From positions 19,377-83,376 of the forward strand of contig LGRX02034276.1 of assembly GCA_001247695.2 (NCBI GenBank): 64,000 nucleotides of DNA. The letters are read 5' to 3'. The stretch is from Cymbomonas tetramitiformis (lineage: Eukaryota > Chlorophyta > Pyramimonadophyceae > Pyramimonadales > Pyramimonadaceae). Shown here piece after piece: positions 9,023 through 57,648 of the stretch. The position numbers and the translations under genes were made by a program. Positions within the stretch are counted from its first letter, which is position 1. Every line of letters starts with the position of its first letter. The notes beneath the pieces were generated by a model. It made no database searches. It worked only from the letters and a program-made list of their open reading frames with translations, and was not told the DNA's origin.

Positions 9023-9152
9023 NNNNNNNNNNNNNNNNNNNNNNNNNNNNNNNNNNNNNNNNNNNNNNNNNNNNNNNNNNNNNNNNNNNNNNNNNNNNNN
9101 NNNNNNNNNNNNNNNNNNNNNNNNNNNNNNNNNNNNNNNNNNNNNNNNNNNN
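9023..9152. other. Assembly gap (N run)
   Basis: A run of 130 N. It hides the 5' end of the LTR that continues at 9154, and therefore the insertion site and any target duplication. Confidence 0.99.
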
Positions 9153-9153
9153 T

Positions 9154-9391
9154 GACTTCGGGTTTAGGCTTAGTTATTATGGGCTCTGACTAGCCCCTAG
9201 CCTGACCCTGCTTCCGTCTCGTGTCCGTGACATCCTAGCACTGTACTGTACAGTAGTACAGTACAGTAGTACAGTCATCGTTTCACTGTCTGGGTTTCCG
9301 AGAGCATAAAGCTTCGGCCAGACACAAGTTATAGGATTATCAGTTTGTCTCCTAGCGAGCTTAGCCGGACAGCGTATCTGTCTTCCTCGCA
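9154..9391 (+). repeat. 5' LTR (3' portion) of gag element
   Basis: The 238 bp are identical to 22743-22980 and end in CA. The repeated short motif GTACAGTAGTACAGTACAGT lies at about 9245-9280. Identity of the two LTRs implies recent insertion. The 5' part is lost in the gap. Confidence 0.88.
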
Positions 9392-12277: not shown

Positions 12278-12304
12278 AACACACTATTCGATGAAAATGA
12301 TATT
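12278..12304 (+). repeat. TIR of T copy 1, gene A side
   Basis: Starts AACACACTATTCGATGAAAA and matches the reverse complement of 22235-22261 for 27 bp. Confidence 0.9.
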
Positions 12305-12550
12305 ATCATATGTCATTTTTGGATTTATATATATTTCAAAAAAATCAGGGTTTAGTGATATTTATGCGCGAAATAGGGATACATAAAGGCAACACGGTAG
12401 AAAAGTGCAGTATGCGTACAATGAAAACACCGAAATATGCATACATGTATCATTCTTTATTCAAATGTTTACGAGTAGAGTACTTTTCACCCTATACCGT
12501 CGAGGCATGACTGATACTATCAGTCAGGGCGGTCGACAAATCCTACTATT

Positions 12551-15500
12551 TTATTCATCATTCTCATCTTCCTCATCTGCATCATTCTCTTCTTCCTCAG
12601 AATCGGCAGTGGCCGCTTCCTTGCCCTTCGCCGTCGGTTCGCTCTTCTGTTTTGGCTTCGTCTCGGCGTCCTGATCGGGCTCGTTGTCGAAATTGATCAG
12701 CCGTTGCTGCGCAGAGCTGACCATGAACTGGTCGTGGTCGAAGCCGATCGCGTTCATACCACACCTCATGGCGGCCATGGACGTCGAGCCGACGCCGCAG
12801 CAAGCGTCGAGAATCCAGTTGAGTGGATGGCCGTTCTCATCCATCTTGCCCGGATTGTCACCGAGCATGTGGCACTGGATCAGCTCCATCAACAGAGCTT
12901 GGGGTTTCTGATGGTTATTCACGGCTTTGTTGTCGCGTTTGAACATCTGGTGCACAACCGGGAAGCCGCGCAAAAGTGACGCGCGGCTCACACGTTCACC
13001 TTCTCCAGTATCAAAGTTGAACATCCACTCCGGCTTTTTAGTAGACTCCCCCTGGGCATCGCTCTTTACATGGTACCCCAGGACGCCACATTCAACGTCA
13101 TTGTAGCGCACGGTCCTGTTGGGGTTCATGTTCACGTTCTGCTTGTGCCAGAAGAACCGCTCCGCGCGGCCGGAGCAGTAATTGTCAATCACCTCCAGGA
13201 AATCGCTTTGTTGGACGAAACCGCAAAAGATAGCGATAGTCCATGCCGGGGCGGTGGTCTTGGCGTTGAAAGACTCCAGGAACGGTTGCACCTCCTCCTT
13301 GGTCATCGCGTCGGGAGTCTTCTCCTTGTCAAGGGCGTAATTGCAGTCGATGATCGTCCCCGTGAAGGGCAGCCTCGGGACGTCCTTCATATCGCTCATG
13401 CTGCCCTTGACGATCTTCCAACGAGGGAACATCGGCACGTTCGTCTCATGTGTGGGCTCGTCCTCCTCAAGGCCTGCCTCTCCTGGAACCTTAAGCTCCG
13501 GCCCCTCGGTCCGCGCCTCCCGATAGAGTTTGATGTCGACTTTCACCTCGACCTGTTGCAAGCCTAGGATGTGCCCCGCGCGTGGCGCCTGCGCTTCTTG
13601 GAGATTCGCCCGCGCGTTCTCGACGTAATTCAAGATCGCGTGCGGAACTTCCCCAGACCCCCCCCGGCGCGCTCCCCCCTGAGTTGAAGGTAAGCAGCCG
13701 ATCAACGACTCGATTTTCTCTTGGGAGCTCCAGTAGGGGGTGAACTCGGCCTTGAATGCGTCCCAGGTTTGCAATCCCGCCGCGGACACCAAGTGCTTCT
13801 GCACCATGCGTTCCTTCTTGAACTGGCTTATCATCAGGCCCCCCTCTTTTACTGACAACTCCTTCTGAATAATCAGGCGCAGATACGTGTCCACCTTGTC
13901 GAACTCCGCCTCCCCCGCCAAGCCGCCCAAGTTAATCCAGAACGTCATACCCATGGATTTGGCATTGTGGAGAAACTGAGCTTCTTCCACCAAAATGCCT
14001 GCCCCTTTAGACGAGCCCGCTCCGTGGTCCCCGCCTCCTCGTTGCACCTCGTCTTCCATCTGCAAGTAAAAAAAACATTTTTAGAATGTCTTAAAATATA
14101 GAAAAGGATGCTTTGGGGGGGTAAACACTGTTTGAAGCAAAAGTAAAAAGTAATTTACCTGTCGGTTGGAGGTGCCTTTTTTGCCAGCTTTCTTGGCGGG
14201 TCCCTTAGCGGGCGAAGATGAGGCCTTGCGCTTTTTGGTCTTCGAAGCCAAAGGGTTTTTCATGCCCTTCAGGTCAAACCTTCTGTAAGCCTCCATGATC
14301 TTAACGCAGAGGTCCCACGTCTGCGGCCGGAAATTGGCAATTGTCCAGTGCATGAAGTAGTGGTTGATTTGCACGCCGCCGAACACAGAATGCTTGGACA
14401 TCGCTACTTCCTTCACATGCGTCTCCATCGACTGGTTCAAGTGAGACATTACGGGGTACCAACTTGTGACCCGATCGAGGTGAGCGTTGATGTCATCCTC
14501 CAGCGTCTTCACCGTCACGTCTACCTCAGGGAGGGTCTCAAGGTCTCCCTCGCGCTCAGACGTCTCCACATCCTCGATGTACTGGAATCCCTTGGGATAT
14601 TTCTCGATATCCGGGACTGCAAATCCATGCTCTGATTCGAACTCCGCCATTTTTTGCACCAGCCCTCCGACCTCGTAATACCCAGGTTGATAAGAGGTAC
14701 CCTCTTCGGTGTCCTCGGGGACACCGGCGACGAACTCGGAGATCAACGCATCTCGGTAAACCTTGTACACGACCCCATTCTTTTCGAAAAGGGTCGAACG
14801 AAGCCCTTGCATGAACTGAGTGTGGTCTTTGCCTTTCGTCTTCTGGTCGATTTGGTTCTGCATCTCGCCTAAGAACCGAATCATGTCAGGCGTGAGACCG
14901 ATGTAGATCTTGCTCTCGAAGAACTGGAAAGCTATCTCCAACGGGATTTCCTCGTGACACTCGTCGGTGGCTTGATAACAGTGCTGGTGCCCAAAAACCT
15001 TGCCTCTGTATTTTCCCGCGAGAGCTTTTTTTATGGAGAATTCGGCACGGGTTTTGACATCGTCGATCGCAACAAGACCCGCATTGAAAGGGGCCCACGG
15101 GTTCTCCTTCCTGCTGTTCTTGATCTCGTTCACCCAGCCCCTCTCTTGATCCCGGCAGGCCTCGTACCCCGTCGCGTGGTACAGGCATCCAATGGGGAGA
15201 CGAAACACACTCCCTTGCTCAGCCGCCTCGTCGGTCGACATCGGGTTCGGCCACCGGTGCTCCATCTCGATTTGCCTGCACAGCTTTGCTTTCTCCTCAA
15301 AATCCATCTTTGCTGCATGCTCCACTGTTAGCTTAGCGTGCCACCCATGTGCAGCCACCTCGGCTGCCTTCCTTGCCTCAGATGGGGTGGCCACTTGAGA
15401 CATATCCACATTGGCGCCCGCTCCAGTAAAAGCTCTGGAGCCACTAGGTCCTTGAAGGGCGCGTTCGGCAGCACGCTGCACATCCGTTCTCCTGGCAGCC

Positions 15501-16669
15501 TGGGACAAGACGAAACTGTTCATTAGCTAATGAAAGCCTTCCGCCCCGGTCAGGGCTCAGGGCGCGCGGTTCGAGGCGGAAGGCGTTCATTAGCTAATGA
15601 ACGCCTTCCGCCCCGGTCAGGGCTCAGGGCGCGCGGTTCGAGGCGGAAGGCGTTCATTAGCTAATGAACGCCTTCCGCCCCGGTCAGGGCTCAGGGCGCG
15701 CGGTTCGAGGCGGAAGGCGTTCATTAGCTAATGAACGCTTTCCGCCCCGGTCCAGGCGCAGGGCGCGCGTTTCGGGGCCGAAAGCGTTCATTAGCTAATG
15801 AACACTTTCCGCCCCGGTCCAGGCGCAGGGCGCGCGTTTCGGGGCCGAAAGCGTTCATTAGCTAATGAACGCTTTCCGCCCCGGTCAGGGCTCAGGGCGC
15901 GCGGTTCGAGGCCGAAAGCGTTCATTAGCTAATGAACGCTTTCCGCCCCGGTCAGGGCTCAGGGCGCGCGGTTCGGGGCCGAAAGCGTTCATTAGCTAAT
16001 GAACGCTTTCCGCCCCAGTTTAGGCTCAGGGCGCGCGTTTCGAGGCCGAAAGCGTTCATTAGCTAATGAACGCTTTCCGCCCCGGTCCAGGCGCAGGGCA
16101 TGAAAGGGACGTACCGAAGCCTCTACAAATGGTATCTCGCCAGCAAGTCCGAGGTCATCGATCACTGCCGCTGGTCTCCTGCTTTGCCAGAAAGGAGCTG
16201 TAATCGACGCTTTCCACGCCTGGTTTACATAGCTCGCTAGATAGAATTCTTTGCTTTTATTTTCGTCTGCTGCTCTAGTTTTCAAACTTTGAAAAGCCAA
16301 CAGCCGATTTGTGTGCTTTGGAAGGCTCAAGGCTTCCTCAAAGTTTGCGCTGTCTAATTCGATCACAGTAAGCTTTCTGTTTCTGTACGCGACGAAATAC
16401 AGAATTGGAGTCTCGTTCTCAATGATACTGTACGCTACGCGTTTCTCAGGAACGAGGCTACCCCCGGTTACAGTCGAAGAGGTAAATTTAGGAAAACTAA
16501 AAATTATTTCTTCATTTTCCTCGGAAGGGTCCTCAGAGTGAATCAGTAATTGCAGACTGTCCGAAGGATCGTCGGCTTCAAGGGTTCTAACAATGCTCCA
16601 CTTGTTACCAAGATAGAGCTGGAAAATATGTTGAGCCCTCAGTGCTTGAAATGTTTCGAGTGTCGCCAT
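12551..16669 (-). CDS. Gene A: fusion with N6/N4-type DNA methyltransferase domain
   Basis: Three exons on the minus strand: 16669-16115 (185 aa), 15499-14159 (447 aa) and 14059-12551 (502 aa plus stop). Donors and acceptors are consensus (TTCG|GTACGT, CCCAG|GCT, CAG|GTAAAT, TTGCAG|ATG) and all in phase 0, giving 1134 aa with no stops. Residues 1-185 and the middle part match nothing I recognise; a strong Lys/Arg nuclear-localisation-like tract (KTKKRKASSSPAKGPAKKAG) ends exon 2. The last third fits the permuted beta-class N6_N4_Mtase fold. A motif-IV-like IIDCNYALD at about residue 866 comes first, then an IAIFCGF and FFWHKQN strand region, then motif I (LDACCGVGSTSMAAM, about residue 1048), where S-adenosylmethionine should bind. 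The usual D/S-PP-Y/W catalytic motif reads DCNY, so activity is uncertain. A Glu/Asp-rich tail ends the protein. Likely nuclear DNA methylation of the element or its target; this is inference. Confidence 0.8.
15518..16080 (-). repeat. Palindrome array in intron 1 of gene A (copy 1)
   Basis: About nine units of 65-67 bp, each centred on the palindrome CGTTCATTAGCTAATGAACG, which often extends to include GCTTTCGG or CCTTCCGC arms. The GC-rich spacer between palindromes also begins and ends with complementary sequence (CTTTCGGCCCCG against CGGGGCGGAAAG), so dyads alternate along the array. The array fills the intron (15500-16114). Confidence 0.95.
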
Positions 16670-16993
16670 TGCGAAATGAGAGAAATTGGCTGTCAACTGT
16701 GAAAGGGGTGTGTGTGAATGAACTTTGAAAAAGTGATGTAACTTTAGCACAATAATAAAAGTCATTTCTGGCGGCTAAAAATGACATGTCGAATATCGAT
16801 GTCAATTTTAATCAAAAATGACATGCGCTGTCGCTTTTTGATTCGGTCTGTTCAGATCAAGGATATGATTTTAAGATATCCTGGTGTCATTTGCGCTGAA
16901 ATCGAGGATCGATCGATTCAGTAAGATAGAAATTCTTGGTTGACTCGCAAGTCTATATCATTTTTAGAACGTAAAAAACGGCTTCATAAGCTA
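16670..16993. promoter_or_regulatory. Divergent promoter region of T copy 1
   Basis: The 324 bp between the start codons of genes A and B must hold both promoters. The repeated motif AAATGACATG and its inverse (16773-16830) and the palindromes AATATCGATGT and GATCGATCGAT are visible. I see no clear TATA box. Copy 2 has the same region at 52864-53187. Confidence 0.5.
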
Positions 16994-17130
16994 ATGACGG
17001 CTAATTTTGACGAAAATATGTTTTCTATTCCTTTCGATGAAGGTTGCGAGATTATCTGCAAACCGTGCCCGGGAATAGTTATTGAAGATTCCATGGAAAT
17101 AGGGGCTGACTTTTTCAATCATGAGCCAAT

Positions 17131-18211
17131 TGCCTATTCTAAAAATATTACGGTGGGTATACCCACCGTAATGCGAAACTGTGCATGCTCGTACCGACCG
17201 CGCAAGTAGGTTGCGGGGGTCAACCCTATGATTTTTCTGTGTCCCAAGAGGTTGATTAAAGGCTGGAAAAGTTAATTTGCACGACTCCGATAAGTTTTGG
17301 CCACCTGCCACACCCTTGAAGTTGGAGAAATTACGGTGGGTAGGAATTATCCCTTACGGTGGGTATACACAATTAACGGTATTTGTAGACTCCTGGAGCT
17401 TGGTATAATATCGAGACACTTATTTGTTCGTTATTTACTTTGATTTTGGTATATAACCGACGTACCTTAGGGTACACATGAGCTGCCACCTGGCGGACCT
17501 CCATATATCGCACGTTCAAAATCAGGTAGCATGCAGACCAAAAAGATATTATTCACACTGTATTACAGGTGCACCTCTGTTATTTCCTAAACTACGGCGC
17601 TGCCTTCCTTGGCGATTACCTCGAGGCCGGGCTCTCTCAACTGGGTCCTGGTTCTCGACTAAGACTAAAGCTCAACTCGCGGGGTTTGTAGAAGGAGCGG
17701 TCACGTCAGAGGAGGGCGTTTGGGGCGGATCCCCCACCAAATATTCAAAACCAAAGTCCTCGCCCTTCTCAGAGTTATCTCCATCCAATTCAAACCATCA
17801 AACGTGATCCCGTATCGTTTTCCCGAGAGGGCTTCGCCGCGTCATAGGACGTCACCACCGCTTCGAGATGGTGTTGTAAGGGGTCCTCGCAAATATCTTA
17901 AAATTTGAATAGCCCATTCCCGCTTCCGCAAGCCCCGGCGGGCACGAGCAGCGTGCGAGCTACCAAAAGCTCATTGAAGCTCATTGCTTTTAGGGTTTCT
18001 GAGTTTGGGTTTCACTTTTCTCGCTGATGAGCCATTTCTGGCGCATGTGAAGGCTCCATAGAGGTTCATTGAAGTGTCTAGAACAAGTTGGTCACTGGTG
18101 ACATGCCGTGATTCGCAGCCAATCAGCGGGAATTATTAGTACCCTTCGGGTGGGTATACCCACCGTAAGCACCTCTTACGGTGGGTATACCCACCCTTCG
18201 TAGAATAGGCA
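17131..18211. mobile_element. MITE with GGTGGGTATACCCACC palindromes (copy 1)
   Basis: The 1081-bp insertion is absent from T copy 2. Its ends are inverted repeats TGCCTATTCT/AGAATAGGCA. The 16-bp palindrome GGTGGGTATACCCACC, usually extended by ACGGT/ACCGT, lies near both ends, and the right end carries it twice around a 7-nt loop. Internal half-copies lie at 17332 and 17353. No coding capacity is seen. The empty site in copy 2 reads CCAATTCCAAGCAC, so a few target bases (TCCAA) are missing here. A second member is at 40791-41849. Confidence 0.9.
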
Positions 18212-18745
18212 GCACAGCCCCCAAGCGCGAATACGCAATTGGTTCTTTGAACGCGCCTGACGTGTAGATCGGAAGTTAGCTCTAATTCTTCACGTTTCGG
18301 GTCACGCGCTTTGCGCGAAATTGACTTACAAGAGATAAAAAGCAGACTTGATACAGAATTTTCAGAGACAAGTTTGGACTTGAGGAATGAAGACCCTCTT
18401 GTTTGTTTAAATGGTGAAGTGAACAAGCAGATTGTCGTGCGCAAACCGTACGAATCCGACATACGCAAGAAACAATATACGGGCGTAATTAGTATTAAGC
18501 AGCGACGTTTGCAGGCGACAAGTATATCAATGGCGAAACAATTAAGTGCAATTGCAAGTCGCACTGCCGTCTCATCTTTCTCATCCGCAGATATTCAGTC
18601 TTTTCATGAAAATATTTTCAAGATGTCGCAAAAAGATAGAAAGGAATACTTCATCAAAGACTTGCTAAAACAATTTTCGATCTCGAGGACAAGTTCGACT
18701 TCAAATACTTTTTGGGCAAGAAGCAGTGTATGTTTTTTTTGAACT

Positions 18746-19316
18746 CGTTCATTAGCTAATGAACGGCCTCCGCCAAAGCGCGACTCACACAGACACTTTG
18801 GCTGCGGAACCGTTCATTAGCTAATGAACGGCCTCTCGGCCAAAGCGCGACTCACAATTAGACACTTTGGCTGCGGGAACCGTTCATTAGCTAATGAACG
18901 GCCTCTGGCCAAAGCGCGACTCACAATTAGACACTTTGGCTGCGGGAACCGTTCATTAGCTAATGAACGGCCTCTGGCCAAAGCGCGACTCACACATAGA
19001 CACTTTGGCTGCAGGAACCGTTCATTAGCCAATGAACGGCCTCTGGCCAAAGCGCGACGCACTTATAGACACTTTGGCTGCGGGAACCGTTCATTAGCTA
19101 ATGAACGGCCTCTGGCCAAAGCGCGACTCACACATAGACACTTTGGCTGCGGGAACCGTTCATTAGCTAATGAGCGGCCTCTGGCCAAAGCGCGACTCGC
19201 ACATAGACACTTTGGCTACGGGAACCGTTCATTAGCTAATGAACGGCCGCTAGCCAAAGCGCGACTCGCACATAGACACTTTGGCTACGGGAACCGTTCA
19301 TTAGCTAATGAACGGC
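18746..19316 (+). repeat. Palindrome array in intron 1 of gene B (copy 1)
   Basis: Nine units of about 68-69 bp with core CCGTTCATTAGCTAATGAAC (some units with one change). Spacers read GGTTCCCGCAGCCAAAGTGT or its complement and contain a second dyad, GCCAAAG...CTTTGGC. The core palindrome is shared with the gene A array while the spacers differ. Confidence 0.95.
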
Positions 19317-19431
19317 CTCTGGTCAAAGCGAAATTTTTCTTGGACCTTGTGATAGATTGTGTAATCTTGTTCATCACAGGAATGTGGAATATTGTATCAT
19401 AAATTTCTAAATAAATTTCATAAAGTACATT

Positions 19432-19502
19432 CGCGACGTTGGTCGAGTTGGTACGGCGCTAGGCTATGAACCTCGCACTCGTGGGTTCGATTCCCACTGA
19501 GG
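19432..19502 (+). tRNA. tRNA-like gene in intron 1 of gene B (copy 1)
   Basis: The A box (TGGTCGAGTTGG) and B box (GGTTCGATTCC) match consensus and the T arm is perfect (GTGGG-TTCGATT-CCCAC). The loop CTATGAA would place AUG (His) as anticodon, with one mismatch in the stem. Relative to copy 2, three bases (CGT) are missing at the start of the 3' acceptor strand, so this copy is impaired. Same strand as gene B. Confidence 0.5.
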
Positions 19503-22234
19503 GTCTAGGTTGCGCAGATTTAAGGCGTGGTGTGGAGAGTGCTGACGAGCATGCGACGGCCGTCCCGCCTGCAGACGTGCAGTGTTGGGGGTGTCTCCCA
19601 AGCGTCTTAAATTGGCATGACCTACCAAACCCCTTATGCATTTTCTAGATAATGTGTTATTAATTTTTGAGTGACGGTTTTTTTTTGTAACAGGTGTGCT
19701 TTAAGTTCTACTATATGGCTTACGGCATCAGCTACGGGTATCTTCTCGACTGTCGGACACGCGTGCTCGAGGGCCGACACACGTTTGTTCATGGATTGAC
19801 GTACGAGGAGGACAACCGCAAGATTTCTCTGAAACGCGAGTCGGTCGTCGCCTGGCTCAAGAAATACGCCGACGAATACGGACAACACCAACCTGACCAA
19901 GAACTGATTCATCTTTCGGATGGATTGACCATCGAAGAGCTGTGGGACGAGTACAACGAGGGCTTGCAAGAGAATGAGGAGAGGAAAAAATGCTCTCTCA
20001 GTTACATCTACAAAATATTTGACGAAGATTGCAGGAAGTGGCTCAAGATTCCATCGACGAACCGATTTTCTCAGTGCGATGTTTGCGCGTCCTTCAAGTT
20101 ATTGAAGGAAGGCTTAACCAAATCTCAAAAAGGTGAATATTCAAGAATAGCTTTGTGATGTGTTTATATGCTTATGTAATTTGTTCACTGACCCAAATTT
20201 GTGTATCTTGCACAGCGCAATACAACGGGCCTCTCAACAAACATCATGCAATCGCACGAGCGGAGCGCCAGAAGTACTACAAACATGGTCGTAAAGCGAA
20301 TATGACCAAGAGCATTACCATGAACAAAACTTGGCATAAGTATGCCTCGGTGATCATCGATGGCATGACGCAGTTGACCACCCGACTGCCACACTTTCGA
20401 CGTATCCCTAAACATCTGGACTCTAAGGACTTCCTTGACGTGCACAACATGGGGAGCATGATCGAGAACGTGGGCCGCTTTATGGATTTCAACTACGCCA
20501 ACTTCAAGGACGATGCGAACTTCCTTGTCAACGTTTTGCACCGGGATATCCTCCGCATTCAAGAGCATCGACGCAACGGGGACGGGGAAAATTCATACCC
20601 GATGCCGGAAGTATTGTATGTACAGCTTGACAATGTGAGCACCAACAAGAGCCCAAGTTGATGTTGGCATACGCAGCTTGGCTGGTGCACACGGACGTCT
20701 TTCGCAAGGTGAAACTCAACTTTCTGTTGGTGGGACATACGCACGAGAACATTGACCAGATGTGTTCACGCTTCTCCGTGCGTCTACGACGCAAGCAAGC
20801 TTGGACGCTCGACGAGATGATAGAGGTCGCACAAGAATGCTTTACGGATGGTGTAACGTGCGAGTACACCGAGAAGATCTTCGACTTCAGCTCTTGGTTT
20901 GATGGTCACGTCTTCGATTGCCACAATATTTTGGCACAGCAGGCTTTCAAGTTCAAGAAGAACGAGCACGGCGAAGTGGGCATGCAGTACAAACAGTATT
21001 CCATTTCACCCAAATGGTTACCCGAGACTCCATTGCCAAAGCTTGCTTCTACACCCCCTGTCGCGGGGCCTGGATACATCAAGCCGATTCCTTTTACCGA
21101 AGAAGGCATCGAAAAGTTTGAGCATACCTTACAGGCGTTGAAGGACATTTTGGGCACAAAGCTCACGGACGTGCACGAAAAGTTTTGGCGCGAGGATGTC
21201 ATCGAGAAATAGCGCCACCTAACTGCTGGTGGAGAATGTCAAGCGCCCGCGATACCCTTCCAGCATCCCGAGAAAATCGCCATCGAGCGCAATGCCACCT
21301 TGGTTCGACTGATAGAGGCGCCTGCGTTGGCGATAGAAGCTGCCGGGGCTGCCGCCGTCCCCGCTATACCGGTGCGCATCCAACGCCGAATTGATCGAGC
21401 GCCGATAGAAGTGTACAACGGTAAACGGAAACACCAAGGTCGAGCCCAAAAGCGAGCAGAGCAGTACGTGGACAACGCCCAGTGGGAGGTCACCTACGGC
21501 CAGATGACAGTCGGCAGCTTTGCAGTGGCTCTCGCGGTGGAATCTGAAAACGACAAGTTCGCTTTCCGCGTACAACTGAGGCGAAGCGAATGGTCGGATC
21601 CGTTGTACTTGGTGAAGGTGGAGGCGCGCTATCCGTCAACTCAACAACTGCTATATCGCTATTTCCAACCCAAAAAGCACACCGACACCAAGAAGAAGCA
21701 CCTCGGCAAGCAGCTTGCGAGTCACCCAGGAGCTTTCGCAGCGCCACCGGGCACCGACCGTCTACCGAGACTTTCGATAAGAATGAAATAGTGCTGGCAT
21801 GGAATGTGGATGCGAAAGACCCCGAACGGAGTATACCGAACGAGCAATACGCGCAGATAGTCGTCGCTTTGCTTGCACAACAATCCAAACGCACGCGCAA
21901 GGACCTAGGTGACTTGAATGAATCGGATGATTCCGATGAAGACGAAGCTTTTGATAATTGCGTAGCGGTAGCGGTAGCACCTGAAGTGGACGCGTAAAGC
22001 AAGACGAAAAAAACATGTAAATAATATGTGTATAACGTGTATATAGATTCTGAGTCAAAAGTTCTTTGTGTTTTCACTCCTCCTAGATTTCGAAAAAGTG
22101 CATTTGACCTCAATTTTGTACCATAAAAACCATTAAATCTAATGCACAACCTGCACTTGCATGTTCTTGACTGTTAAAATGCGGCTTTTTAAGCCTATCA
22201 TGATGTAAATAAGGCAATATCATTTTCACATGAG

Positions 22235-22261
22235 AATATCATTTTCATCGAATAGTGTGTT
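22235..22261 (-). repeat. TIR of T copy 1, gene B side
   Basis: Reverse complement starts AACACACTATTCGATGAAAA; it pairs with 12278-12304. Confidence 0.9.
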
Positions 22262-22637: not shown

Positions 22638-22980
22638 GTGATCGGTTTCCACCGAGTTGCACGTAGGTGTTTGTTTATTATCACGTGGCTGTATACCCTG
22701 TACCTGCCTTGCTAGGTAGTCACACCCACGGGTGGTGTGCTGGACTTCGGGTTTAGGCTTAGTTATTATGGGCTCTGACTAGCCCCTAGCCTGACCCTGC
22801 TTCCGTCTCGTGTCCGTGACATCCTAGCACTGTACTGTACAGTAGTACAGTACAGTAGTACAGTCATCGTTTCACTGTCTGGGTTTCCGAGAGCATAAAG
22901 CTTCGGCCAGACACAAGTTATAGGATTATCAGTTTGTCTCCTAGCGAGCTTAGCCGGACAGCGTATCTGTCTTCCTCGCA
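22638..22980 (+). repeat. 3' LTR of gag element
   Basis: The last 238 bp (22743-22980) are identical to 9154-9391. The 5' boundary is uncertain because the other LTR is truncated by the gap; TGATCGG at 22638 is one candidate start and the true start could be nearby. Ends in CA at 22980. Confidence 0.8.
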
Positions 22981-48194: not shown

Positions 48195-48442
48195 TTGTCA
48201 CCATTTTCCCCCACTCCGCAACATCGCTTTTCCCCAATTTCACGCTCAGATACCACAATTTATACCAGCCACACCACCGCCCCAATTTCACGCTCAGATA
48301 CCACCACTCCAAACCCCCGCAACTACCGACGCACACCACCCGGCTCACCACCAGCGCGCTCACTGCACAACACCGCACGCACCAGCGATTGCCCATTCTG
48401 CGGGATCACCATCGACCGCCCATTCCACCGCTTCCTACCCGA
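48195..48442 (+). CDS. 5' coding segment of the gypsy-type element
   Basis: This Pro/Ser/Thr/His-rich open frame ends in CPFCGITIDRPFHRFLP at the T insertion point. Across T the same frame gives DRC, completing a C-x2-C-x8-H-x6-C zinc-finger-like motif. It is probably part of the gag region. The true start is unknown. Confidence 0.45.
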
Positions 48443-48708
48443 AACACACTATTCGATGAAAATGATATTCTCATGTGAAAATGATATTGCCTTATTTACC
48501 TCATGATAGGCTTAAAAAGCCGCATTTTAACAGTCAAGAACATGCAAGTGCAGGTTGTGCATTAGATTTAATGGTTTTTATGGTACAAAATTGAGGTCAA
48601 ATGCACTTTTTCGAAATCTAGGAGGAGTGAAAACACACAGAACTTTTGACTCAGAATCTATATACACGTTATACACATATTATTTACATGTTTTTTTTTC
48701 GTCTTGCT

Positions 48709-51700
48709 TTACGCGTCCACTTCAGGTGCTACCGCTACCGCTACGCAATTATCAAAAGCTTCGTCTTCATCGGAATCATCCGATTCATTCAAGTCACCTA
48801 GGTCCTTGCGCGTGCGTTTGGATTGTTGTGCAAGCAAAGCGACGACTATCTGCGCGTATTGCTCGTTCGGTATACTCCGTTCGGGGTCATTCGCATCCAC
48901 ATTCCATGCCAGCACTATTTCATTCTTATCGAAAGTCTCGGTAGACGGTCGGTGCCCCGGTGGCGCTGCGAAAGCTCCTGGGTGACTCGCAAGCTGCTTG
49001 CCGAGGTGCTTCTTCTTGGTGTCGGTGTGCTTTTTGGGTTGGAAATAGCGATATAGCAGCTGTTGAGTTGACGGATAGCGCGCCTCCACCTTCACCAAGT
49101 ACAACGGATCCGACCATTCGCTTCGCTTCAGTTGTACGCGGAACGCGAACTTGTCGTTTTCAGATTCCACCGCGAGAGCCACTGCAAAGCTGCCGACTGT
49201 CATCTGGCCGTAGGTGACCTCCCACTGGGCGTTGTCCACGTACTGCTCTGCTCGCTTTTGGGCTCGACCTTGGTGTTTCCGTTTACCGTTGTACACTTCT
49301 ATCGGCGCTCGATCAATTCGGCGTTGGATGCGCACCGGTATAGCGGGGACGGCGGCAGCCTCGGCAGCTTCTATCGCCAACGCGGGCGCCTCTATCAGTC
49401 GAACCAAGGTGGTATTGCGCTCGATGGCGATTTTCTCGGGATGCTGGAAGGGTATCGCGGGCGCTTGACATTCTCCACCAGCAGTTAGGTGGCGCTGTTT
49501 CTCGATGACATCCTCGCGCCAAAACTTTTCGTGCACCTCCGTGAGCTTTGTGCCCAAAATGTCCTTCAACGCCTGTAAGGTATGCTCAAGCTTTTCGATG
49601 CCTTCTTCGGTAAAAGGAATCGGCTTGATGTATCCAGGCCCCGTGACAGGGGGTGTAGAAACAAGCTTTGGCAATGGAGTCTCGGGTAACCATTTGGGTG
49701 AAATGGAATACTGTTTGTACTGCATGCCCACTTCGCCGTGCTCGTTCTTCTTGAACTTGAAAGCCTGCTGTGCCAAAATATTGTGGCAATCGAAGACGTG
49801 ACCATCAAACCAAGAGCTGAAGTCGAAGATCTTCTCGGTGTGCTCGCATATTACACCATCCGTAAAGCATTCTTGTGCGACCTCTATCATCTCGTCGAGC
49901 GTCCAAGCTTGCTTGCGTCGTAGACGCACGGAGAAGCGTGAAAACATCTGGTCAATGTTCTCGTGCGTATGTCCCACCAACAGAAAGTTGAGTTTCACCT
50001 TGCGAAAGACGTCCGTGTGCACCAGCCAAGCTGCGTATGCCAACATCAACTTGCTCTTGTTGGTGCTCACATTGTCAAGCTGTACATACAATACTTCCGG
50101 CATCGGGTATGAATTTTCCCCGTCCCCGTTGCGTCGATGCTCTTGAATGCGGAGGATATCCCGGTGCAAAACGTTGACAAGGAAGTTCGCATCGTCCTTG
50201 AAGTTGGCGTAGTTGAAATCCATAAAGCGGCCCACGTTCTCGATCATGCTCCCCATGTTGTGCACGTCAAGGAAGTCCTTAGAGTCCAGATGTTTAGGGA
50301 TACGTCGAAAGTGTGGCAGTCGGGTGGTCCACTGCGTCATGCCATCGATGATCACCGAGGCATACTTATGCCAAGTTTTGTTCATGGTAATGCTCTTGGT
50401 CATATTCGCTTTACGACCATGTTTGTAGAACTTCTGGCGCTCCGCTCGTGCGATTGCATGATGTTTGTTGAGAGGCCCGTTGTATTGCGCTGTGCAAGAT
50501 ACACAAATTTGGGTCAGTGAACAAATTACACAAGCATATAAACACATCACAAAGCTATTCATGAATATTCACCTTTTTGAGATTTGGTTAAGCCTTCCTT
50601 CAATAACTTGAAGGACGCGCAAACATCGCACTGAGAAAATCGGTTCGTCGATGGAATCTTGAGCCACTTCCTGCAATCTTCGTCAAATATTTTGTAGAAG
50701 TAACTGAGAGAGCATTTTTTCCTCTCCTCATTCTCTTGCAAGCCCTCGTTGTACTCGTCCCACAGCTCTTCGATGGTCAATCCATCCGAAAGATGAATCG
50801 GTTCTTTGTCAGGTTGGTGTTGTCCGTATTCGTCGGCGTATTTCTTGAGCCATGCAACGACCGACTCGCGTTTCAGAGAAATCTTGCGGTTGTCCTCCTC
50901 GCACGTCAATCCATGAACAAACGTGTGCCGGCCCTCGAGCACGCGTGTCCGACAGTCGTGAAGATACCCGTAGCTGATGCCGTAAGCCATATAGTAGAAC
51001 TTAAAGCACACCTGTTACAAAAAAAAAACCGTCACTCAAAAATTAAGAACACATTATCTAGAAAATGCATAAGGGTTTTGGTAGGTCATGCCAATTTAAG
51101 ACGCTTGGGAGACACCCCCAACACTGCACGTCTGCAGGCGGGACGGCCGTCGCATGCTCGTCAGCACTCTCCAAACCACGCCTTAAATCTGCGCAACCTA
51201 GACCCTCAACGGTGGGAATCGAACCCACGAGTGCGAGGTTCATAGCCTAGCGCCGTACCAACTCGACCAACGTCGCGAATATGTACACATCGTAAATTTA
51301 GAAATTTATCATACAACATTCCACATTCCTGTGATGAACAATATTGCACAATATATCACAAGGTCCAAGAAAAATTTCGCTTTGGCCAGAGGTCGTTCAT
51401 TAGCTAATGAACGGTTCCCGCAGCCAAAGTGTCTATATGTGTGTGGCGCTTTGGCCAGAGGCCGTTCATTAGCTAATGAACGGTTCCCGCAGCCAAAGTG
51501 TCTATGTGTGTGTCGCGCTTTGGCCAGAGGCCGTTCATTAGCTAATAAACGGTTCCCGCAGCCAAAGTGTCTATGTGTGTGTGTGTGTGTGTCGCGCTTT
51601 GGCCAGAGGCCGTTCATTAGCTAATGAACGGTTCCCGCAGCCAAAGTGTCTAATTGTGAGTCGCGCTTTCGCCAGAGGCCGTTCATTAGCTAATGAACGG

Positions 51701-52863
51701 TTCCCGCAGCCAAAGTGTCTAATTGTGAGTCGCGCTTTGGCCAGAGGCCGTTCATTAGCTAATGAACGGTTCCCGTAGCCAAAGTGTCTAATTGTGAGTC
51801 GCGCTTTGGCCAGAGGCCGTTCATTAGCTAATGAACGGTTCCCGTAGCCAAAGTATCTAATTGCGAGTCGCGCTTTGGCCAGAGGCCGTTCATTAGCTAA
51901 TGAACGGTTCCCGCAGCCAAAGTGTCTAATTGTGAGTCGCGCTTTGGCCAGAGGCCGTTCATTAGCTAATGAACGGTTCCCGTAGCCAAAGTGTCTAATT
52001 GTGAGTCGCGCTTTGGCCAGAGGCCGTTCATTAGCAATGAACGGTTGCCGCAGCCAAAGTGTCTAATTGTGAGTCGCGCTTTGGCCAGAGGCCGTTCATT
52101 AGCTAATGAACGGTTGCCGCAGCCAAAGTGTCTAATTGTGAGTCGCGCTTTGGCCAGAGGCCGTTCATTAGCTAATGAACGAGCTCAAAAAAAAACATAC
52201 CTGCTTCTTGCCCAAAAAGTATTTGAAGTCGAACTTGTCCTCAGATCGAAAGCTGTTTTTTAGCAAGTCTTTGATGAAGTATTCCTTTCTATCTTTTAGC
52301 GACATACTGAAAATATTTTCGCGAAAAGACTGAATATCTGCGGATGAGAAAGATAGACAGCAGTGCGACTTGCAATTGCACTTAATTGTTTCTGCCATTG
52401 ATATACTGTCAGCCTGCAAACGTCGCTGCTTAATACTAATTACGCCTGTATATTGTTTTTTGCGTATGTCGGATTCGTACGGTTTGCGCACGACAATCTG
52501 CTTGTTTACTTCACCATTTAAACAAACAAGAGGGTCTTCATTCCTCAAGTCCAAACTTGTCTCTGAAAATTCTGTATCAAGTATGCTTTTTATCTCTTGT
52601 AAGTCAATTTCGCGCAAAGCGCGTGACCCGGAAACGCGTGAAGAATTAGAGCTAACTTCCGATCTACACGTCAAAGGCGCGTTCCAAAGAACCAATTGCA
52701 TATTCGCGCTTGGGGCTGTGCTTGGAATTGGCTCATGATTGAAAAAGTCAGCCCCTATTTCCATGGAATCTTCAATAACTATTCCCGGGCACGGTTTGCA
52801 GATAATCTCGCAACCTTCATCGAAAGGAATAGAAAACATATTTTCGTCAAAATTAGCCGTCAT
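48709..52863 (-). CDS. Gene B: DUF7869-like putative transposase
   Basis: Three exons on the minus strand: 52863-52201 (221 aa), 51011-50573 and 50489-48709. Consensus splice sites (AAGCAG|GTATGT, TGTAACAG|GTG, AAAAAG|GTGAAT, TGCACAG|CGC) give one open frame of about 960 aa. Exon 1 has a Cys cluster (KCNCKSHCC), then the join VCFKFYYMAYGIS typical of this family. Exon 3 holds an RNase H-like core with acidic landmarks IIDGMTQ, YVQLDNVSTNK and LLVGHTHENIDQMFSRF. This D...D...HTHExID pattern is what I know from DUF7869 proteins, which look like DDE-type transposases. The C terminus is acidic. The product should act in the nucleus on the TIRs or palindromes. No ATG exists farther upstream in frame before a TTG at 52917, so 52863 is chosen. 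This copy appears intact. Confidence 0.82.
51204..51277 (-). tRNA. tRNA-like gene in intron 1 of gene B (copy 2)
   Basis: 74 nt with a near-complete acceptor stem (CGCGACG with CGTTGAG, one mismatch, one G-U), A box TGGTCGAGTTGG, anticodon loop CTATGAA (anticodon AUG, His) and a perfect T arm. The D stem is imperfect. It is the better copy of the pair and lies on the same strand as gene B, within its first intron. Whether it is expressed or only a captured pseudogene is unknown. Confidence 0.5.
51388..52187 (-). repeat. Palindrome array in intron 1 of gene B (copy 2)
   Basis: Twelve units of about 69 bp (core CCGTTCATTAGCTAATGAAC, spacer GGTTCCCGCAGCCAAAGTGT and so on). Two cores carry a single change (TTAGCTAATAAAC near 51540, TTAGCAATGAAC near 52030). 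Copy 1 has nine units, so the array length varies. Confidence 0.95.
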
Positions 52864-53187
52864 TAGCTTATGAAGCCGTTTTTTACGTTCTAAAAATGAT
52901 ATAGACTTGCGAGTCAACCAAGAATTTCTATCTTACTGAATCGATCGATCCTCGATTTCAGCGCAAATGACACCAGGATATCTTAAAATCATATCCTTGA
53001 TCTGAACAGACCGAATCAAAAAGCGACAGCGCATGTCATTTTTGATTAAAATTGACATCGATATTCGACATGTCATTTTTAGCCGCCAGAAATGACTTTT
53101 ATTATTGTGCTAAAGTTACATCACTTTTTCAAAGTTCTTTCACACACACCCCTTTCACAGTTGACAGCCAATTTCTCTCATTTCGCA
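52864..53187. promoter_or_regulatory. Divergent promoter region of T copy 2
   Basis: 324 bp between the two start codons, almost identical to 16670-16993. Inverted AAATGACATG motifs and ATCGAT palindromes lie in the middle. Both genes must be driven from here. Confidence 0.5.
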
Positions 53188-56100
53188 ATGGCGACACTCG
53201 AAACATTTCAAGCACTGAGGGCTCAACATATTTTCCAGCTCTATCTTGGTAACAAGTGGAGCATTGTTAGAACCCTTGAAGCCGACGATCCTTCGGACAG
53301 TCTGCAATTACTGATTCACTCTGATGACCCTACCGAGCAAAATGAAGAAATAATTTTTAGTTTTCCTAAATTTACCTCTTCGACTGTATCCGGGGGTAGC
53401 CTCGTTCCTGAGAAACGCGTAGCGTACAGTATCATTGAGAACGAGACTCCAATTCTGTATTTCGTCGCGTACAGAAACAGAAAGCTTACTGTGATCGAAT
53501 TAGACAGCGCAAACTTTGAGGAAGCCTTGAGCCTTCCAAAGCACACAAATCGGCTTTTGGCTTTTCAAAGTTTGAAAACTAGAGCAGCAGATGAAAATAA
53601 AAGCAAAGAATTCTATCTAGCGAGCTATGTAAACCAGGCGTGGAAAGCGTCGATTACAGCTCCTTTCTGGCAAAGCAGGAGACCAGCGGCAGTGATCGAT
53701 GACCTCGGACTTGCTGGCGAGGTACCATTTGTAGAGGCTTCGGTACGTCCCTTTCATGCCCTGCGCCTGGACCGGGGCGGAAGGCGTTCATTAGCTAATG
53801 AACGCTTTCGGCCTCGAAACGCGCGCCCTGCGCCTAAACTGGGGCGGAAAGCGTTCATTAGCTAATGAACGCTTTCGGCCCCGAAACGCGCGCCCTGAGC
53901 CCTGACCGGGGCGGAAAGCGTTCATTAGCTAATGAACGCTTTCGGCCTCGAAACGCGCGCCCTGAGCCCTGACCGGGGCGGAAAGCGTTCATTAGCTAAT
54001 GAACGCTTTCGGCCCCGAAACGCGCGCCCTGCGCCTGGACCGGGGCGGAAAGTGTTCATTAGCTAATGAACGCTTTCGGCCCCGAAACGCGCGCCCTGCG
54101 CCTGGACCGGGGCGGAAAGTGTTCATTAGCTAATGAACGCTTTCGGCCCCGAAACGCGCGCCCTGCGCCTGGACCGGGGCGGAAAGTGTTCATTAGCTAA
54201 TGAACGCTTTCGGCCCCGAAACGCGCGCCCTGCGCCTGGACCGGGGCGGAAAGCGTTCATTAGCTAATGAACGCCTTCCGCCTCGAACCGCGCGCCCTGA
54301 GCCCTGACCGGGGCGGAAGGCGTTCATTAGCTAATGAACGCCTTCCGCCTCGAACCGCGCGCCCTGAGCCCTGACCGGGGCGGAAGGCTTTCATTAGCTA
54401 ATGAACAGTTTCGTCTTGTCCCAGGCTGCCAGGAGAACGGATGTGCAGCGTGCTGCCGAACGCGCCCTTCAAGGACCTAGTGGCTCCAGAGCTTTTACTG
54501 GAGCGGGCGCCAATGTGGATATGTCTCAAGTGGCCACCCCATCTGAGGCAAGGAAGGCAGCCGAGGTGGCTGCACATGGGTGGCACGCTAAGCTAACAGT
54601 GGAGCATGCAGCAAAGATGGATTTTGAGGAGAAAGCAAAGCTGTGCAGGCAAATCGAGATGGAGCACCGGTGGCCGAACCCGATGTCGACCGACGAGGCG
54701 GCGGAGCAAGGGAGTGTGTTTCGTCTCCCCATTGGATGCCTGTACCACGCGACGGGGTACGAGGCCTGCCGGGATCAAGAGAGGGGCTGGGTGAACGAGA
54801 TCAAGAACAGCAGGAAGGAGAACCCGTGGGCCCCTTTCAATGCGGGTCTTGTTGCGATCGACGATGTCAAAACCCGTGCCGAATTCTCCTGAAAAAAGCT
54901 CTCAGGGGAGAATACAGAGGCAAGGTTTTTGGGCACCAGCACTGTTATCAAGCCACCGACGAGTGTCACGAGGAAATCCCGTTGGAGATAGCTTTCCAGT
55001 TCTTCGAGAGCAAGATCTACATCGGTCTCACGCCTGACATGATTCGGTTCTTAGGCGAGATGCAGAACCAAATCGACCAGAAGACGAAAGGCAAAGACCA
55101 CACTCAGTTCATGCAAGGGCTTCGTTCGACCCTTTTCGAAAAGAATGGGGTCGTGTACAAGGTTTACCGAGATGCGTTGATCTCCGAGTTCGTCGCCGGT
55201 GTCCCCGAGGACACCGAAGAGGGTACCTCTTATCAACCTGGGTATTACGAGGTCGGAGGGCTGGTGCAAAAAATGGCGGAGTTCGAATCAGAGCATGGAT
55301 TTGCAGTCCCGGATATCGAGAAATATCCCAAGGGATTCCAGTACATCGAGGATGTGGAGACGTCTGAGCGCGAGGGAGACCTTGAGACCCTCCCTGAGGC
55401 AGACGTGACGGTGAAGACGCTGGAGGATGACATCAACGCTCACCTCGATCGGGTCACAAGTTGGTACCCCGTAATGTCTCACTTGAACCAGTCGATGGAG
55501 ACGCATGTGAAGGAAGTAGCGATGTCCAAGCATTCTGTGTTCGGCGGCGTGCAAATCAACCACTACTTCATGCACTGGACAATTGCCAATTTCCGGCCGC
55601 AGACGTGGGACCTCTGCGTTAAGATCATGGAGGCTTACAGAAGGTTTGACCTGAAGGGCATGAAAAACCCTTTGGCTTCGAAGACCAAAAAGCGCAAGGC
55701 CTCATCTTCGCCCGCTAAGGGACCCGCCAAGAAAGCTGGCAAAAAAGGCACCTCCAACCGACAGGTAAATTACTTTTTACTTTTGCTTCAAACAGTGTTT
55801 ACCCCCCCAAAGCATCCTTTTCTATATTTTAAGACATTCTAAAAATGTTTTTTTTACTTGCAGATGGAAGACGAGGTGCAACGAGGAGGCGGGGACCACG
55901 GAGCGGGCTCGTCTAAAGGGGCAGGCATTTTGGTGGAAGAAGCTCAGTTTCTCCACAATGCCAAATCCATGGGTATGACGTTCTGGATTAACTTGGGCGG
56001 CTTGGCGGGGGAGGCGGAGTTCGACAAGGTGGACACGTATCTGCGCCTGATTATTCAGAAGGAGTTGTCAGTAAAAGAGGGGGGCCTGATGATAAGCCAG

Positions 56101-57371
56101 TTCAAGAAGGAACGCATGGTGCAGAAGCACTTGGTGTCCGCGGCGGGATTGCAAACCTGGGACGCATTCAAGGCCGAGTTCACCCCCTACTGGAGCTCCC
56201 AAGAGAAAATCGAGTCGTTGATCGGCTGCTTACCTTCAACTCAGGGGGGAGCGCGCCGGGGGGGTCTGGGGAAGTTCCGCACGCGATCTTGAATTACGTC
56301 GAGAACGCGCGGGCGAATCTCCAAGAAGCGCAGGCGCCACGCGCGGGGCACATCCTAGGCTTGCAACAGGTCGAGGTGAAAGTCGACATCAAACTCTATC
56401 GGGAGGCGCGGACCGAGGGGCCGGAGCTTAAGGTTCCAGGAGAGGCAGGCCTTGAGGAGGACGAGCCCACACATGAGACGAACGTGCCGATGTTCCCTCG
56501 TTGGAAGATCGTCAAGGGCAGCATGAGCGATATGAAGGACGTCCCGAGGCTGCCCTTCACGGGGACGATCATCGACTGCAATTACGCCCTTGACAAGGAG
56601 AAGACTCCCGACGCGATGACCAAGGAGGAGGTGCAACCGTTCCTGGAGTCTTTCAACGCCAAGACCACCGCCCCGGCATGGACTATCGCTATCTTTTGCG
56701 GTTTCGTCCAACAAAGCGATTTCCTGGAGGTGATTGACAATTACTGCTCCGGCCGCGCGGAGCGGTTCTTCTGGCACAAGCAGAACGTGAACATGAACCC
56801 CAACAGGACCGTGCGCTACAATGACGTTGAATGTGGCGTCCTGGGGTACCATGTAAAGAGCGATGCCCAGGGGGAGTCTACTAAAAAGCCGGAGTGGATG
56901 TTCAACTTTGATACTGGAGAAGGTGAACGTGTGAGCCGCGCGTCACTTTTGCGCGGCTTCCCGGTTGTGCACCAGATGTTCAAACGCGACAACAAAGCCG
57001 TGAATAACCATCAGAAACCCCAAGCTCTGTTGATGGAGCTGATCCAGTGACACATGCTCGGTGACAATCCGGGCAAGATGGATGAGAACGGCCATCCACT
57101 CAACTGGATTCTCGACGCTTGCTGCGGCGTCGGCTCGACGTCCATGGCCACCATGAGGTGTGGTATGAACGCGATCGGCTTCGACCACGACCAGTTCATG
57201 GTCAGCTCTGCGCAGCAACGGCTGATCAATTTCGACAACGAGCCCGATCAAGACGCCGAGACGAAGCCAAAACAGAAGAGCGAACCGACGGCGAAGGGCA
57301 AGGAAGCGGCCACTGCCGAATCTGAGGAAGAAGAGAATGATGCAGATGAGGAAGATGAGAATGATGAATAA
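53188..57371 (+). pseudogene. Gene A copy 2: broken methyltransferase fusion
   Basis: Exons 53188-53742, 54425-55764 and 55864-57371 correspond to copy 1. Exon 1 is open. In exon 2 one base is lost near 54889, giving a stop at 54890-54892. In exon 3 a G is lost from a G run near 56262, and TGC became TGA at 57048-57050. Each exon is otherwise nearly identical to copy 1, so the decay is recent. Methyltransferase motif I (LDACCGVGSTSMATM) lies after the new stop. Confidence 0.88.
53783..54412 (+). repeat. Palindrome array in intron 1 of gene A (copy 2)
   Basis: Ten units of about 66-67 bp around CGTTCATTAGCTAATGAACG with GC-rich spacers (GGCCCCGAAACGCGCGCCCT). The intron runs 53743-54424. The last palindrome overlaps the intron's 3' end, 20 bp before the acceptor. 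Confidence 0.95.
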
Positions 57372-57648
57372 AATAGTAGGATTTGTCGACCGCCCTGACT
57401 GATAGTATCAGTCATGCCTCGACGGTATAGGGTGAAAAGTACTCTACTCGTAAACATTTGAATAAAGAATGATACATGTATGCATATTTCGGTGTTTTCA
57501 TTGTACGAATACTGCACTTTTCTACCGTGTTGCCTTTATGTATCCCTATTTCGCGCATAAATATCACTAAACCCTGATTTTTTTGAAATATATATAAATC
57601 CAAAAATGACATATGATAATATCATTTTCATCGAATAGTGTGTTCCGA

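Follow-up and report, generated by a model that had tools for sequence, protein, structure and literature searches.

Can a eukaryotic DNA transposon carry, beside its transposase, a methyltransferase-like partner that acts on the element's own sequence? This question is raised by a 64,000-nucleotide stretch of the green alga Cymbomonas tetramitiformis (contig C24185:19377-83376; hereafter the window), in which an initial annotation had seen a terminal inverted repeat (TIR) transposon with two divergent genes: gene B, resembling DUF7869 transposases, and gene A, ending in a permuted N6/N4-type methyltransferase. In this study, we followed the element through the window and the 851.7-Mb assembly that contains it. 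It is almost certainly a transposon with two partner genes, and both genes carry tandem arrays of a palindromic dyad in their first intron. The best overall explanation, a two-gene transposon whose gene A acts on its own arrays, has in our estimate a probability of about 0.5.

Two copies of one element lie in the window, copy 2 at 48443-57644 and copy 1, inverted, at 12278-22261. Both ends of both copies carry the same perfect 27-bp TIR, AACACACTATTCGATGAAAATGATATT, located at 48443-48469 (forward strand) and 57618-57644 (reverse strand) in copy 2 and at 12278-12304 (forward) and 22235-22261 (reverse) in copy 1, and the boundaries given in the initial annotation proved exact. A 26-bp TIR pattern allowing up to three mismatches found four matches in the window, against a chance expectation of 0.00. 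The 4-bp target duplication that had been claimed is present in copy 2 (CCGA, 48439-48442 and 57645-57648) and absent from copy 1, whose flanks read TGTC and CTAC; comparison of these flanks with the window and the collected loci did not resolve an empty site. Across the assembly, the TIR (up to three mismatches) has 1229 forward and 1250 reverse matches, 2,479 in total, and a reversed-pattern control has none on either strand. The first 100 TIR places include 11 pairs that face each other across less than 20 kb, ten of which were fetched, the widest (C1680) being left out; with the two window copies these make 12, a choice of facing pairs that favours full-length copies. Perfect 4-bp duplications, all different, flank 10 of these 12 (ACAG, TTCC, GAAA, TACA, AGGG, TGTA, CAAG, AATC, GGTT and CCGA), including nine of the ten from outside the window; the two without are L011 (AATA/ATAT) and window copy 1. 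Together with the genome-wide TIR matches, these duplications bear out a TIR DNA transposon with 4-bp target duplications.

The two divergent spliced genes described earlier were recovered as well. Modelled from sequence without RNA evidence, both have three exons and GT-AG introns; in copy 2 they diverge from the centre, between 52863 and 53188, with their 3′ ends toward the TIRs. Gene B (960 residues) is uninterrupted in copy 2, where exons 1 to 3 occupy 52201-52863, 50573-51011 and 48709-50489 of the reverse strand. Gene A (1134 residues) is uninterrupted in copy 1, on the reverse strand (exon 1, 16115-16669; exon 2, 14159-15499; exon 3, 12551-14059, containing the methyltransferase-like domain). 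In copy 2, on the forward strand, it is broken, in exon 2 (54425-55764) near 54890 and in exon 3 (55864-57371) by an indel at 56258 and a stop at 57048-57050; exon 1 lies at 53188-53742. Gene B of copy 1 is broken by indels and by a nested 1,077-bp insert in exon 1 (17133-18209). Three of the 12 full-length copies have an uninterrupted gene A and three an uninterrupted gene B, gene B of L016 being left unjudged because the match ended one base before an exon end. The published assembly of the alga is described as a nanopore and Illumina hybrid (PMC10675990), and assembly error may add to real decay in the broken genes.

Some further features accompany these copies. The 1,077-bp insert ends in CCTATTCTA...TAGAATAGG, contains palindromes GGGTATACCC, and is perhaps a small non-autonomous TIR element. 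Copy 1 is flanked by 238-bp direct repeats that are 100% identical (9154-9391 and 22743-22980), which may be the long terminal repeats of a young retroelement that copy 1 entered; positions 9023-9152 are a run of N. A palindrome-like stretch at the start of gene B in subfamily 1, to which these copies belong, was dropped as a candidate when it did not recur in subfamily 2.

Are genes A and B partners, or unrelated passengers of different elements that nesting happened to join in the window? The missing target duplication and nested DNA of copy 1 would suit the latter, as would C251, where a truncated gene A has no gene B within 9.5 kb. Contradicting it, both genes are present and divergent between related TIRs in all 12 full-length copies, and the pair recurs in two diverged subfamilies, described below. 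The first eight TIR loci lead into gene A in four cases, gene B in three and neither in one (L004), L002 and L003 being the two ends of one copy; conversely, a TIR lies near the gene end in 18 of 20 gene A loci, the exceptions being L030 and L037. The expected place of gene B was sought from the gene A side at ten loci and obtained at eight, one of them short. Gene B was found in three of the eight (L054, L055, L057), gene A exon 1 in L056, which is cut by a contig end, and neither gene in four (L051, L052, L053, L058), two of which were extended; one, C251, is the locus mentioned above, and the other, C721, is a copy with an internal deletion that still has parts of both genes. Because of C251 and the gene A-side stretches lacking it, decayed copies without gene B probably exist. 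Since the gene pair and related TIRs are kept in two diverged subfamilies, we take A and B to be partners, with a confidence close to certainty; that they are passengers joined by chance, a possibility raised with the initial annotation, is improbable in the extreme.

The second subfamily was found with the query P0057, for which 98 of 2896 first-look candidates were scored; six of the 98 loci matched at 87-100%, and all six were fetched. Three (L045, L046, L048) have gene A and nearly all of gene B in divergent orientation, two (L047, L050) have gene A and part of gene B, L050 beginning at a contig end, and L049 has a truncated gene A and no gene B. Compared with the window genes, identity in the main part of gene A is 49-56% in five loci and 41-53% in L049, that of gene B is 39-68% depending on the piece, and the first about 170 residues of gene A reach only 24-25%. 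The TIR of subfamily 2 is AACACGCTATTCGCAGAAAATGACATTA, and all three copies with both ends seen have target duplications (CGCA, TACC and TATT). For the third subfamily, the query P0008, 56-63% identical to gene B, led to 3733 first-look candidates, of which 74 were scored; these 74 loci are 97-100% identical to P0008 and 66 are stop-free in the matched part, so that their sequences show signs of a very recent burst. Beyond gene B, a divergent gene A homologue was found in two of three probed copies, and the third stretch (C871, L063) showed no match. The homologue in C11233 has identities of 31-35% with P0053 and P0057 and of about 43% with P0061 in the methyltransferase part; the open frame of C25363 is nearly the same, and that copy ends in AACACGCTATTCGATGAAAACGACATT. 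In the Cymbomonas gene model P0067, an end resembling gene B (42%) is fused to a part resembling gene A (52%).

Two observations concern individual subfamily-3 loci. L004 adjoins a P0008-type gene B (C25:6173-7933) and has, at its position 1501, a subfamily-1-like TIR just upstream of exon 1 of this gene; the TIR leads into DNA without gene A or B, and is read as belonging to a nested or non-autonomous element. On the gene A side of the C11233 copy, L066 (C11233:26000-26700) contains an open frame ending in a stop. Its pattern, CxxC...CxxC...YCSxxC...HxxxC, we take to be a MYND-like zinc finger.

Between subfamilies 1 and 2, the ratio of nonsynonymous to synonymous substitution rates (dN/dS) is 0.27 for gene A, 0.20 for its methyltransferase part and 0.11 for gene B, as read from one copy pair per gene with saturated dS (1.6-2.5). 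Within subfamily 1 gene B gives 0.21-0.63, and within subfamily 2 the whole of gene A gives 0.37-0.70. Because the counting ignores broken frames and dead copies, we give weight to the between-subfamily ratios only.

Gene B matches the Pfam family DUF7869 (PF25273) at 161.9 bits, against a cut-off of 26, over 49705-50292 in exon 3 of copy 2. The D, DN and HTHE landmarks noted earlier are indeed present, and D, DN and GHTH[E/D] are common to all 26 aligned relatives; the predicted fold is RNase H-like, of the DDE type. Its closest named relative is CYMTET_15056 of C. tetramitiformis (95% identity), and relatives with DUF7869 are named from Branchiostoma and Saccostrea. The assignment to a DUF7869 transposase of DDE type therefore agrees with the Pfam match, the conserved D, D and E/D and the predicted fold. 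On the strength of this fold, the motifs, the TIRs and the duplications, we infer that gene B encodes the DDE transposase that would cut and join the 27-bp TIRs and so leave the 4-bp duplications.

For gene A, the closest named relative is CYMTET_44419 of C. tetramitiformis (86% identity). Its methyltransferase-like part lies at about 56560-57210 in copy 2, and the DCNY followed by DACCGVGST that had been read there are both present (motif IV at 56574-56585 and motif I at 57114-57140 in copy 2; 13337-13348 and 12782-12808 in copy 1). The alignment follows the permuted beta-class order IV, W-x-K, X, I, as D-x-x-Y, W-x-K, HQKPxALL and DACCGVGST or close to it. With PF01555, 19 of the 22 aligned members give a match at E of 0.1 or lower, the best at 7.1e-8; relative to the curated cut-off of this profile, 26.7 bits, P0053 scores 31.9 and the window exon 3 falls just below, at 25.3. 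The DNA methyltransferase family phrog_67 matches all five gene A proteins given to it (4.3e-11 for the window exon, 1.6e-13 for P0054), and the subfamily-3 frame matches general methyltransferase profiles only, below cut-off. The sole viral-contig match, L001, encodes a phage-like methyltransferase and led to a comparison set of four viral-contig sequences. Aligned to these with hhalign, the gene A profile gave a probability of 97% (E 1.3e-10), and a control with the gene B profile gave 0.2%. This alignment covers every motif except motif IV, which was assigned by its position ahead of FC, at a distance of 37 residues in gene A and of 33 in the viral-contig protein.

Motif IV is where gene A departs from its relatives. 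Of the 22 members, 11 have DCNY, four DCVY, four DGNY and one DSMY, two not covering the site; subfamily 3 has DVIY, with DAGCGVATA as motif I. Because none of these conforms to the canonical (D/N/S)PP(Y/F/W), gene A is filed, from its sequence, as a divergent PF01555 homologue and not as a canonical member. The claim of a permuted N6/N4 methyltransferase thus stands as far as homology goes (PF01555, phrog_67 and the profile comparison) and falls short at motif IV, which has no PP. Three of the four viral-contig relatives cover this motif and read DLPY or DIPY; the first proline is therefore dispensable there. Taken together, the sequence leaves the case for an active DNA amino-methyltransferase evenly poised. 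Elsewhere in the protein, a basic stretch at the end of exon 2 reads as resembling a nuclear localization signal, and the fast-evolving N-terminal about 170 residues might be a target-recognition part. Viral contigs held no close relative of the element when searched with exon 3 of gene A, exon 3 of gene B and alignments of both, in a collection where near records may be missing, and a viral origin was set aside as without support.

If gene A does act on DNA, where might its target be? Intron 1 of both genes contains, in subfamilies 1 and 2, a tandem array built on the dyad TCATT(A/G)GC(C/T)AATGA. In copy 2, the gene B array (51378-52181) comprises 11.5 units of 69 bp and the gene A array (53758-54413) 9.8 units of 67 bp, both with the dyad CGTTCATTAGCTAATGAACG; in copy 1 the arrays lie at 18741-19330 (gene B) and 15511-16099 (gene A). 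All 12 subfamily-1 copies have both, with 5-11 sites in gene B and 7-10 in gene A, the gene A array of L019_20 being split into 3 and 6 by an insert. Pooled over these copies, 101 gene B sites are spaced by 69 bp in 83 of 89 intervals and 102 gene A sites by 67 bp in 81 of 89. In subfamily 2, both arrays are found in five of six loci, and none in the truncated L049; the dyad is mostly GTATCATTGGCCAATGATAC in gene B (spacing 67-68 bp in 17 of 23 intervals) and mostly GTATCATTAGCTAATGATAC in gene A (66-67 bp in 17 of 27). In subfamily 3, L004 has a 93-bp array of CTGCTCATTAGCTTAATGAGCAG at seven places between the gene B exon 1 and exon 2 pieces (chance expectation 0.02). This dyad is 1 bp longer, and exact-length searches missed the subfamily because of the extra base. 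The bases beside the dyad core are T/A, A/T and C/G in the three subfamilies, by eye from the consensus sequences, and on this comparison the dyad is kept while its letters change between subfamilies. Intron 1 of gene B also holds, in copy 2, a tRNA-His-like stretch (51203-51278, reverse strand), whose box is present in 9 of the 12 full-length copies; it may be an insert resembling a short interspersed element or a captured tRNA.

As a working model, we propose a family of TIR transposons that move by cut and paste and carry two partner genes; the gene B transposase would mobilize the element and gene A would be a nuclear accessory protein built on the permuted amino-methyltransferase fold. 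Gene A would recognise the dyads arrayed in the two first introns and, by methylating or occupying them, keep the central divergent promoter region active or regulate the output of copies. This would make it a sequence-specific regulator of its own element, with a logic like that of VANC21 in VANDAL21. The nuclear location of gene A, its binding to the arrays, the choice of binding or methylation as its function and the anti-silencing outcome are all inferred; the array logic is borrowed from VANC21 and N4CMT, two systems discussed below. We put the chance that gene A acts on the element's own arrays slightly under one half.

Several observations weigh against the model. Our data link the arrays to gene A no more than to gene B or to a host protein. 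In the subfamily-3 copy of C11233, the 701 bases covered on the gene A side (L066) have three dyads and no regular array. Within arrays, complementarity is near the expectation from column make-up at nearly all positions, and we make no claim of covariation there. Every one of the 12 full-length copies has at least one gene broken. Within subfamily 1, gene A evolves at near-neutral ratios (dN/dS 0.57-1.54), and within subfamily 2 its methyltransferase part has ratios above 1 in four of the five comparisons that involve L050 and in three of the ten that do not. In four of the five L050 comparisons, dS of this part is 0.03-0.05, versus 0.22-0.26 for the whole gene, and gene conversion or frame effects may account for the low values with high ratios. 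Searches of PDB sequences with gene A gave nothing significant (exon E 0.18, CcrM 0.51; profile 0.86). As to whether the C terminus folds as something other than a methyltransferase, which had been named as a way for the initial annotation to fail, its sequence matches DNA methyltransferase families, and the structure model is poor (predicted local distance difference test score, pLDDT, 48).

How far gene A is an enzyme divides the explanations that remain. It could be a catalytically dead methyltransferase fold, retained as a DNA-binding or assembly protein, such as a second transposase subunit or a repressor, that binds the arrays and leaves them unmodified. The PP of motif IV is absent from all 20 of the 22 aligned members that cover it and from two subfamily-3 frames, the rest of the domain is strongly retained, and arrays of dyads would suit a dimeric binder. 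Nevertheless, the D and Y of motif IV are kept in 20 of 20 covering members, and W-x-K, HQKP and motif I are nearly invariant, none of which a dead enzyme need keep; the phage-like relatives with DLPY or DIPY also make the first proline non-essential. We hold a dead fold to be a possible but minority explanation. The opposite extreme, in which the transposon writes its own N6-adenine or N4-cytosine marks on the arrays with a methyltransferase whose catalytic motif, D-x-x-Y lacking PP, would be new, and in which these marks form a code for self-recognition or against silencing that coevolves with the arrays, would be the most far-reaching form of the model, and we consider it rather doubtful.

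The arrays themselves might belong to another player. Gene A could be an active amino-methyltransferase, as its homology allows, that marks newly copied or excised elements, as Dam does for bacterial IS10, with the arrays serving the transposase or a host factor; they occur in both genes and are equally near the control region of gene B. However, transposase binding sites are usually subterminal, whereas these arrays lie inside the element, separated from each TIR by at least about 2.7 kb in the 12 copies, and no direct link speaks either way, so this arrangement seems unlikely to us. Less likely again is that they arose as selfish DNA or as by-products of mutation, minisatellites prone to form hairpins, in which neither protein plays a part. 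Their copy number does vary freely and they lack clear covariation; yet subfamilies 1 and 2 have a closely related dyad in both introns, as has subfamily 3 in its gene B intron array, within units that otherwise diverge in sequence and even in period (66-69 versus 93 bp), and, as judged by eye, the changes beside the core from one subfamily to another come in matched pairs.

Mobile elements with DNA-modifying genes have precedents. Two viral Mariner elements are DNA transposons that encode both a transposase and a methyltransferase; these are described as single copies in giant viruses, with TA duplications, a Mariner transposase and an extra endonuclease, and the domains given for them are Methyltransf_26 and cytosine-C5 methylase rather than PF01555 (PMC3627910). 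DIRS elements with a Dam-like methylase, and long interspersed (LINE) and DIRS elements of Symbiodinium and Gypsy elements of K. nitens with cytosine methyltransferases, are eukaryotic, as is the present element, but are reported as retrotransposons with Dam-like or C5 enzymes (PMC5890265). Fungal TET/JBP transposons also combine cut-and-paste transposition with a DNA-modification enzyme, in their case a dioxygenase acting on methylated bases and, as reported, other transposase superfamilies (PMC12730594). The permuted PF01555 fold has a eukaryotic counterpart in N4CMT of bdelloid rotifers, presented as a host gene with SPPY and a chromodomain, outside transposons; it shows that a PF01555 enzyme is able to mark eukaryotic transposons (PMC8885841).

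A parallel in logic is VANDAL21. The motifs of VANC21 are reported in tandem repeats in the introns of VANC21 and VANB21 and upstream of VANA21 (PMC5735166), so that in both systems an element carries its motif in tandem repeats within the introns of its genes. There, an element-encoded regulator acts on the intron-repeat motifs, which for gene A is proposed only, by analogy; VANDAL21 is of MuDR type, VANC21 binds YAGTATTAY, whereas the motif here is palindromic, and its localization goes with loss of methylation (PMC5735166, PMC10398659). By description, Sola2 is similar in its 4-bp duplications, a transposase near 900 residues and possible accessory genes, but has AT-rich duplications and TIRs of 12-21 bp (PMC3627910); the 4-bp target duplication that serves as a criterion for Sola is found in our element as well. 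Among the open-licence papers listed, a set that excludes Repbase Reports, none describes a transposon with DUF7869 or places a PF01555 methyltransferase in a DNA transposon, and none names DUF7869. Given the viral elements (PMC3627910), DNA transposons with a methyltransferase are not entirely without precedent; new here are the intron-1 dyad arrays in both genes and a complete DUF7869 element with a partner gene, and the mechanism is unusual and testable.

For DUF7869, a domain to which Pfam assigns no function, the gene B match far above cut-off and the shared D, DN and GHTH[E/D] now come with a complete element, including termini, target duplications and a partner gene. Gene A raises a question of enzymology, namely whether methyl transfer can be carried out by D-x-x-Y without PP. 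The element is abundant and nanopore reads of the alga are reported to exist (PMC10675990), so that base modifications might be called over many array units without growing the alga anew. VANC and TET exemplify transposons that oppose or remove host marks; the writing of its own amino-methyl marks by a transposon, if true, would be a new mechanism.

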